A stretch of 64,000 nucleotides of DNA, from positions 124,001 through 188,000 of the forward strand of contig NZ_JACOIJ010000004.1 in the NCBI RefSeq assembly GCF_014692495.1, given 5' to 3'. This DNA comes from Sphingobacterium litopenaei. GTDB taxonomy: Bacteria; Bacteroidota; Bacteroidia; Sphingobacteriales; Sphingobacteriaceae. Below are positions 61,936 to 64,000 of the stretch, in pieces. Every line of letters begins with the position of its first letter. The first letter of the stretch is position 1. The notes beneath the pieces are model-generated. The model did no database searches. It worked only from the letters and a program-made list of their open reading frames with translations, and had not been told where the DNA came from. A program made the position numbers and the translations under genes.

Positions 61936-62592
61936 TTATACAATAAGTTGAAGAAGATTTGACAAATCTTCGATTAGATACTTCGCAACAGCAAGTCTTT
62001 GACGCTCCGTAGTGTGCTTGGAAACCGCAACACAAGTTAATCCAGCTGCTGTAGCCGATGTAAAACCTGTAATCGTGTCTTCTACAGCTATTATTTGTTC
62101 TTTTGTAAGACCTAATTTCTGTGTAGCCAACTCATAAGGTTCTGGATTAGGCTTTGGATTTTCAACGAGTTCCCTTGTAATAAAAAATTCAAAATAATCG
62201 AGTAATTCATGATGCCCTAAAACTGTATCTACTGTCGTTGTATAACTGGATGTGACTAACGCCATACGCAAACCCTTTTGTCGTAAATTTTCTAAGGTTT
62301 CTTTCGCGAAAGGCATTAATCGAATTGTAGTCATATCCGATTTCGCATAATTGGCTCTCGTGGCAGTCCACATAAATTCTTCCGTAGTCTCAATACCAAA
62401 TTGATCTTTCAAAAATCCAACATTACGGACTAAGGTGTGTCCAGCAAAATTCTTCAACCAATCATCGAAAGTAATATGTAAGTCGAATTCATCGGATAGT
62501 ATTGGTGCCCAATTACTGTAGTAAAAATATTCTGAATCTATTAATGTGCCATCCAAATCAAATAATACGGCTTTTACGGTAGATGCTATCAT
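61936..62592 (-). CDS. HAD-superfamily phosphatase, beta-phosphoglucomutase-like
   Basis: A 218-residue protein with HAD motif I VLFDLDGTLIDSEYFYYSNW (nucleophile Asp in DLDGT), motif II region LVTSSYTTTV, motif III Lys in ENPKPNPEPYELA and motif IV IIAVEDTITGF. The helical cap follows motif I, as in subclass IA enzymes such as beta-phosphoglucomutase and sugar phosphatases. Without a conserved sugar-binding signature the substrate remains open. It is transcribed away from the structured element at 62693-62832. Confidence 0.88.
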   Translation of the reverse strand: MIASTVKAVLFDLDGTLIDSEYFYYSNWAPILSDEFDLHITFDDWLKNFAGHTLVRNVGFLKDQFGIETTEEFMWTATRANYAKSDMTTIRLMPFAKETLENLRQKGLRMALVTSSYTTTVDTVLGHHELLDYFEFFITRELVENPKPNPEPYELATQKLGLTKEQIIAVEDTITGFTSATAAGLTCVAVSKHTTERQRLAVAKYLIEDLSNLLQLIV

Positions 62593-62660
62593 AGGACTAA
62601 AGTTCGCAAAATATATCGTGAAATAGCACCATGCAATATGGATTTATTGTAAATAAAGAA

Positions 62661-62681
62661 GAGGCTGTCTCCAACGGCCTC
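62661..62681 (-). terminator. Terminator-like hairpin downstream of the intron-like element
   Basis: On the minus strand GAGGC-c-GT / AC-a-GCCTC forms a stem with a 5-nt loop, followed by TTCTTTATTT. It lies 11 nt past the 140-nt structured element. Confidence 0.55.
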
Positions 62682-62692
62682 ATTCGATTTCT

Positions 62693-62832
62693 GTGCGTCA
62701 GGCCAGAGATTTACCGCCGGCTTCCTTCAGATTCCCCCTCGCGAAGGACACCCTTGCCTTAAGTTAACGTTTCCCACTATCAAGGCACGTTCGGGACTTA
62801 CACCCTAGAGTTCACGCCCATGCCGGACGCAC
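62693..62832 (-). ncRNA. Group II intron domain-I-like RNA element without ORF
   Basis: On the minus strand this 140-nt sequence begins GTGCGTCCGGCATGGGCGTG and continues with AGGGTGTAAGTCCC, GGCAAGGGTGTCC and GGAATCTGAAGGAAGCCGGC, all reminiscent of the 5' part (domain I) of bacterial group II introns, whose 5' consensus is GUGYG. Instead of continuing into the rest of domain I, it ends GGCCTGACGCAC, which pairs with its own 5' end (GTGCGTC with GACGCAC, then GGC/GCC). Internal stems (GTGCCTT/AAGGCA, CCTTCGCGAGG) are visible. There is no reverse transcriptase nearby. It is GC-richer than its surroundings. It may be a degenerate intron fragment or a domesticated structured RNA. Confidence 0.6.
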
Positions 62833-62834
62833 AT

Positions 62835-62873
62835 AAAAAATGCTATCTCAATCACTTGAAATAGCATTTTTTT
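62835..62873. terminator. Hairpin terminator after the GMC oxidoreductase gene
   Basis: AAAAAATGCTAT/ATAGCATTTTTT (12 bp) with an inner TCAA/TTGA pair lies 17 nt past the minus-strand stop at 62891 and would work in both directions. Confidence 0.85.
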
Positions 62874-62890
62874 CTTTAAAAATAAAATTT

Positions 62891-64000
62891 TTAAAAACTT
62901 CCCTTTTTCATTTCTTTAATTGCATAATCAACTGAGCGCGCTGAAAATGCCATATAGGTAAGAGAGGGATTTTGAGTAGAAGTAGAGGTCATGGCTGCAC
63001 CATCGGTAACAAAAACATTCGGTACAGCATGCAGTTGATTCCATTTATTGAGCATAGAGGTCTTAGGATCAAGTCCCATACGAACACCACCCATTTCGTG
63101 TATATCTAATCCAGGTGCCTGCCAATTGTCATCGCGACGAATGTTGGTAAAACCTGCCTCAGTAAACATTTCTTCCAAAGTATCCAAGTAATCCTTCTTC
63201 ATCTTCTCATCATTCTGGTCGTAATCAATAGAAATCTTGAGCAAAGGAATACCCCATTCATCTTTTTTGTCCTTATCTAATGCTACATAATTTGATGCTT
63301 TTGGAATAGTCTCCCCCATCATGTGCGAACCTACTCCCCAACTTCCGAGTTTTGGATTCAACAAAGATTTTTTTAAATCTTCGCCTAATCCAGAAGTATC
63401 AGCATACGAAGAACGATAAGCCCCGAATCCAGCCGCGTAGCCACGTAAGTAATTCGTTTCTTGCTTATATAGGTTTCTGAATCTGGGAATATAAGCACCA
63501 CCTGCTGGATTACGACCTTCGACAGTATAATCTAACAACCCCTCGTACTCAGCATATATTCGGGCACTATAATTATGGAAAGCCACATATTTACCCAACG
63601 TTTCACTATCATTGCCTAAACCATTCGGGAAACGGGTAGATGTAGAATTTAACAAGATCAAATTGGTATTAATAGCTGCTGCATTCACAAAAATGATTTT
63701 TGCATAAAAATCAATCTCTTCCTTCGTATTTCGATCAATAACTTTTACTCCTACGGCTTTCCCCTTTTGTTCATCATACAAAATAGAATGAACCACAGAG
63801 TTTGGTCTTAGTGTCAGGTTTCCAGTTTTTGCTGCCCAGGGTAAAGTGGAAGCATTCGAACTAAAATATCCTCCAAAAGGACAACCACGCTGACATAAGG
63901 TTCTATTTTGACATTGGGTACGTCCTTGCTGGATATGAATAGGCTGCGGTTTAGAAATATGAGCACAACGTGCCGAAATAACTTTCCGTGTTGGATATTT
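62891..64000 (-). CDS. GMC-family oxidoreductase, N-terminus beyond the window
   Basis: The minus-strand frame is open to the right edge (370 codons including the stop), so the gene is partial. An in-frame GTG at 63796 is internal, because the conserved frame continues upstream with PIHIQQGRTQCQNRTLCQRG and CPFGGYFSSNASTLPWAAKT. The C-terminal half shows the GMC signature: DIHEMGGVRMGLDPKTSMLNKW (catalytic His region) and VFVTDGAAMTSTSTQNPSLTYMAFSARSVDYA. The protein resembles FAD-dependent gluconate 2-dehydrogenase-like or sugar/alcohol dehydrogenases common in Bacteroidota, often paired with a small subunit gene that would lie outside the window. The cysteine cluster TQCQNRTLCQRGC is notable for these enzymes. 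Confidence 0.88.
   Translation of the reverse strand, partial: KYPTRKVISARCAHISKPQPIHIQQGRTQCQNRTLCQRGCPFGGYFSSNASTLPWAAKTGNLTLRPNSVVHSILYDEQKGKAVGVKVIDRNTKEEIDFYAKIIFVNAAAINTNLILLNSTSTRFPNGLGNDSETLGKYVAFHNYSARIYAEYEGLLDYTVEGRNPAGGAYIPRFRNLYKQETNYLRGYAAGFGAYRSSYADTSGLGEDLKKSLLNPKLGSWGVGSHMMGETIPKASNYVALDKDKKDEWGIPLLKISIDYDQNDEKMKKDYLDTLEEMFTEAGFTNIRRDDNWQAPGLDIHEMGGVRMGLDPKTSMLNKWNQLHAVPNVFVTDGAAMTSTSTQNPSLTYMAFSARSVDYAIKEMKKGSF

Follow-up and report, generated by a model that had tools for sequence, protein, structure and literature searches.

An ORF-less group IIC intron truncated at its 3' end, behind a transcription terminator of Sphingobacterium litopenaei

The locus and the extent of the intron fragment

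The DNA analysed here, referred to as the window, is a stretch of 64,000 nt from Sphingobacterium litopenaei, whose genome assembly comprises 3.85 Mb in 94 contigs. On the minus strand, an open reading frame at 62891..63796, which presumably represents the C-terminal part of a GMC-type oxidoreductase, lies upstream of an open reading frame at 61936..62592, which we take to encode a HAD-like hydrolase. Among the ten named loci with relatives of the hydrolase, nine belong to Sphingobacterium, and the remaining one matches weakly, with 28% identity. Between the two genes lies a segment, flanked by hairpins at 62835-62873 and 62661-62681, that a preliminary description had delimited as 62693-62832 and interpreted as a self-closed RNA element resembling the 5' part of a group II intron. 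The minus-strand sequence, its motifs, the complementarity GTGCGTC...GACGCAC of its ends and both flanking hairpins are all present.

A comparison by blastn with a full-length intron copy (C44), together with an alignment of the copies, identified the minus-strand segment 62670..62832 as nt 1-163 of a group II intron of 691 nt whose intact form occurs at other sites of this genome. The two sequences agree in 162 of 163 bases (99.4%), the sole mismatch in both comparisons being a C to T substitution at position 6 of the window copy. The similarity extends 23 nt past the 3' end previously assigned at 62693; beyond nt 163, at the junction 62670/62669, the copy passes into unrelated sequence. In a cmscan search the Rfam model RF02001 (group-II-D1D4-3) matched 62748-62657 of the minus strand with 45.8 bits (E 4.7e-06, gathering threshold 32), the last part of the match aligning past the truncation point, and no other Rfam family reached its gathering threshold anywhere in the 64-kb window. 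The proposed origin of the segment in the 5' portion of a group II intron is borne out by this match and by the 163-nt identity to the full-length copy. The same description had rightly noted that an encoded protein and domains V/VI are missing: no ORF of at least 60 aa overlaps the element, and the domain V model RF00029 found no match in the window with cmscan. Because domains V-VI are absent, the fragment presumably can neither splice nor move. It is a non-functional member of group IIC, a remnant of part of domain I.

The two flanking hairpins differ in nature. The upstream one (62835..62872, minus strand) is the intrinsic terminator of the upstream gene and the insertion site of the intron. 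The other (62661..62681, minus strand), which had been regarded as a flank, belongs in part to the intron (62681-62670), as the comparison with the full copy in C44 reveals, and only its remainder is host sequence. Such a fused hairpin might now provide the hydrolase gene with an additional upstream terminator or insulator, since on the minus strand it has GAGGC/GCCTC arms with a T-rich tail, and since a terminator-like hairpin at C64 has a 3' arm similar to its host part. A terminator scan, however, called 62661-62681 terminator-like on the plus strand only, and the upstream minus-strand terminator is stronger; we regard this role as very unlikely. The minus-strand sequence 62655-62669, GACAGCCTCTTCTTT, resembles a terminator that has kept its 3' arm and tail but lost its 5' arm. 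The idea that the junction belongs to a common perfect terminator pair was rejected when the pattern AGGCTGTCTN{0,20}AGACAGCCT remained unmatched in the genome; the hairpin at C64 is similar but imperfect.

The terminal stem and the fold

The preliminary description called the element self-closed and, because its ends are complementary, took it not to be a simple random truncation. The 7-base complementarity is completed by the position-6 substitution of the window copy; position 6 is C in the other aligned copies. The alignment comprises 25 of 31 copies and omits those that end at contig edges, are truncated or show early alterations (C18, C20, C8, C40b, C21 and G034 C32). In these 25 rows, pair 6-135 is formed only by the window copy and pair 3-138 by nine copies, whereas the remaining five pairs are formed in 24 or 25 copies, in columns that are nearly invariant apart from one-sided C/T changes. 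None of the seven pairs exhibits a two-sided change, and the covariation that the description had suggested looking for is thus unsupported in the 25-copy alignment. Overall, 76.6% of the cells of the stem are paired, compared with 76.4% in shuffles. When the stem is shifted by up to 3 columns pairing falls to 9-53%, as expected, because the stem was chosen from the window sequence.

A hairpin of domain I (columns 85-100) served as control. Its cells are paired to 99.3%, with two-sided changes in nine cells, and it beat all 500 shuffles on three measures, including paired cells and cells with two-sided changes; the count of pairs that change on both sides (1) was reached by 500 of 500 shuffles, and that of pair types by 281. 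RNAalifold assigns the arms of the terminal stem to other partners, pairing 2-8 with 28-34 and 134-136 with 36-38, and 6 of the 37 pairs of its consensus show two-sided changes. A self-closed stem was rejected, as it lacks covariation while a genuine control helix was detected. Special stability of the fold of 62655-62834 was likewise rejected: it is little better than that of shuffles (z -1.01), 36 of 200 being equally stable.

These data bear on the view that the element is a structured RNA, whether miniature, domesticated or mobilized in trans, that is closed by a terminal stem of its own. In its favour are the exact complementarity over seven bases between the ends chosen in the preliminary description, the predicted single-strand fold, which makes use of it, and the five stem pairs that nearly all copies can form. 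The full stem, however, exists in one of 25 copies by virtue of one substitution, and the fold stays close to that of shuffles. Nor does any mapped copy short of a contig edge stop at the same place. A shared truncation end was rejected because the mapped copies that do not reach a contig edge end at three different points: the window copy at nt 163, C77 at approximately nt 149 and C40b at nt 111. In addition, the fragment sits behind a terminator without a promoter site before it on its own strand. A scan of 62560-62920 for promoters of the sigma-70 type yielded two sites where 0.9 would be expected; the plus strand has one of them, and the other, on the minus strand at 62673-62646, lies at the end of the fragment. 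A structured RNA of this kind is highly improbable, and its domestication is, as far as the evidence goes, not borne out. The truncated intron copy remains the preferred reading.

The parent intron family

A DNA search with 62670-62834 as query, of the kind the preliminary description had recommended, revealed ten copies with 93-100% identity in the same genome, including the window copy. Two of the nine others, all of at least 93% identity, are cut to 123-125 nt by contig edges inside the matched stretch. Nine further copies in this genome are diverged (79-83% identity), and of 58 other genomes searched four contain matches, all in the same genus and with 93% identity at best. In total, 36 copies are known: 19 in the genome under study (G000), 12 in G034, three in G001 and one each in G008 and G015.

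Two copies, C44 (L021:2688-3378, minus strand) and C16 (L022:532-1221, plus strand), can be read from end to end. They are 691 and 690 nt long and 99.6% identical, and both start with GTGCG and have a common 3' end, which is shared by C35, after which the flanks of the three differ. Both match the D1-D4 models RF02001 and RF01998, with RF02001 scores of 136-149 bits for full-length copies, and the domain V model RF00029 with 50.8 bits (gathering threshold 40). With GTGCG at nt 1, a defined 3' end and domain V, the family shares these features with group IIC introns. That the 5' part found in the window continues as a full intron in C44 and C16, in the same genome, contradicts the earlier statement that it is not a simple truncation; such a continuation had itself been named there as speaking against a self-closed element. 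Taken together, these data identify the window element almost certainly as a dead copy of an ORF-less group IIC intron that has lost its 3' part. Another Sphingobacterium genome contains a compact relative of approximately 556 nt with separate internal deletions (L136:637-1192, G034 C18), in which no domain V match exceeded the threshold.

A profile search of the genome revealed five RVT_1 matches, at C22, C19, C35, C40 and C36, and none in the C16 and C44 introns. The short introns (family A, 691 nt) match a longer relative (family B, C35, 1927 nt) at nt 1-553 and 1788-1927 with approximately 95% identity. Since the short form matches both ends of the 1927-nt intron, whose reverse transcriptase gene sits between the matched stretches, it has, most simply interpreted from the sequences, lost the ORF. 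Protein-free full-length copies (family A) thus coexist with a related IEP-bearing intron (family B).

At contig edges, the short form has six additional 5' ends and likewise six 3' ends. They probably represent six further copies collapsed in the assembly, which would account for equal numbers of both ends and leads to an estimate of approximately eight full-length short copies in the genome, two complete and six inferred; the estimate is drawn from their ends, and an ORF in the middle of these six is conceivable. The same ends could be invoked for a split intron, in which the 3' part missing from the window copy is encoded elsewhere and the halves are spliced in trans, as six 3' ends have no linked 5' end in the assembly and engineered split group II introns can reportedly function (PMC3410883). 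However, these 3' ends are all at contig edges, where six 5' ends match them as in repeat collapse, and the window copy lies between two separate genes, so that no split exon is apparent. The probability of a split intron is close to nil, and the window copy is better understood as truncated.

The parent introns form an ORF-less group IIC family that has been amplified in a genome of the Bacteroidota, a minor new point; a search of the open-licence literature for ORF-less group II or IIC introns in Bacteroidota found no paper. A review describes ORF-less introns as rare in bacteria, with their mobility mostly lost (PMC4424553), and a later survey reports that certain genomes show an increase in them (PMC8919778).

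Insertion, truncation and mobility

Directly upstream of nt 1, 29 of 31 copies have a predicted hairpin of at most -9 kcal/mol within 45 nt, in contrast to 13.3% of 2000 random 45-mers, which were drawn from nine G000 loci that also contain copies. The exceptions are C8 (-8.9 kcal/mol) and G034 C2 (-0.4 kcal/mol), and the 31 copies exclude five of the 36 known ones (G034 C23, G034 C56:88 and three of G001). The hairpin upstream of the window copy has -19.0 kcal/mol over these 45 nt and a T-rich tail. Insertion after terminators is the habit of group IIC introns; bacterial class C introns are described as inserting behind intrinsic terminators (PMC8919778; PMC4424553). The parent family further resembles group IIC introns in that its full copies match the D1-D4 and domain V models, and a reverse transcriptase of the GsI-IIC kind is present in its sister family C. 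The window copy differs from group IIC introns in being cut at nt 163 and in having neither domain V, nor the remaining intron, nor the protein.

In S. bovistauri L122 both neighbouring genes occur in the same order, separated by approximately 125 nt, and the intron is absent from this gap; in the other compared loci where both genes were seen the gene order differs. For the host sequence that follows the junction, the S. bovistauri gap contains no counterpart, and the genome under study offers no clear source. In the proposed history, a full-length ancestral copy would have inserted behind the terminator of the upstream gene by RNA-directed retrotransposition, driven by a reverse transcriptase supplied in trans. 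Target-primed reverse transcription typically leaves 5'-truncated copies, so that the loss of the 3' part requires a separate deletion. This later event would have removed all of the intron downstream of nt 163, possibly together with host DNA, and fused the stump to host sequence. Behind a strong terminator, the fragment is probably hardly transcribed. Most bacterial group II intron copies are truncated or inactivated, as stated in a review (PMC4424553), and the window locus itself is ordinary, one more inactivated mobile-intron copy, given that intact protein-free copies of the same intron exist elsewhere in the genome.

Mobilization in trans, which the preliminary description had considered for the window element, does not apply to the fragment but fits the 691-nt ORF-less parent family. 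For the latter it is suggested by near-identical copies at unrelated sites. The ORF-less short copies outnumber their one close assembled ORF-bearing relative, C35, whose frame is broken, as are those of its G034 relative and of C40. Intact frames are found in C22 (442 aa) and C19 (443 aa). The family C enzyme (C22) matches NCBIfam TIGR04416 above the cut-off and is, among solved structures, closest to the GsI-IIC reverse transcriptase (6ar1, E 1.8e-120), a typing that applies to family C, as family A has no reverse transcriptase and the broken one of family B was compared only with TIGR04416. Given the broken frame of C35, the diverged sister enzymes of C22 and C19 come into consideration as drivers: it is possible, if rather unlikely, that the short introns spread behind terminators without a working protein of their own type and are driven by these enzymes. 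At C36 (L141:48-765), a domain V match of 64 bits precedes a partial group II-like reverse transcriptase frame by only approximately 115 nt, an unusual arrangement pointing to an intron that is rearranged or nested.

The window fragment is of little importance in itself, and the case shows that a single substitution together with an arbitrary choice of ends can mimic a closed RNA. The interest of the parent family is modest. To our knowledge, the introns of Thermosynechococcus elongatus are not terminator-targeted class C introns. Among them, TeI3 exemplifies ORF-less group II introns mobilized in trans, and the parents studied here resemble it (PMC2882425) in being protein-free, lacking the ORF of a related intron and outnumbering ORF-bearing relatives; they differ in that their single close ORF-bearing relative in the assembly carries a broken frame. 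If the short introns are indeed driven by the diverged sister enzymes, they would parallel, within class C, the driver system of T. elongatus, with a reverse transcriptase of relaxed specificity.
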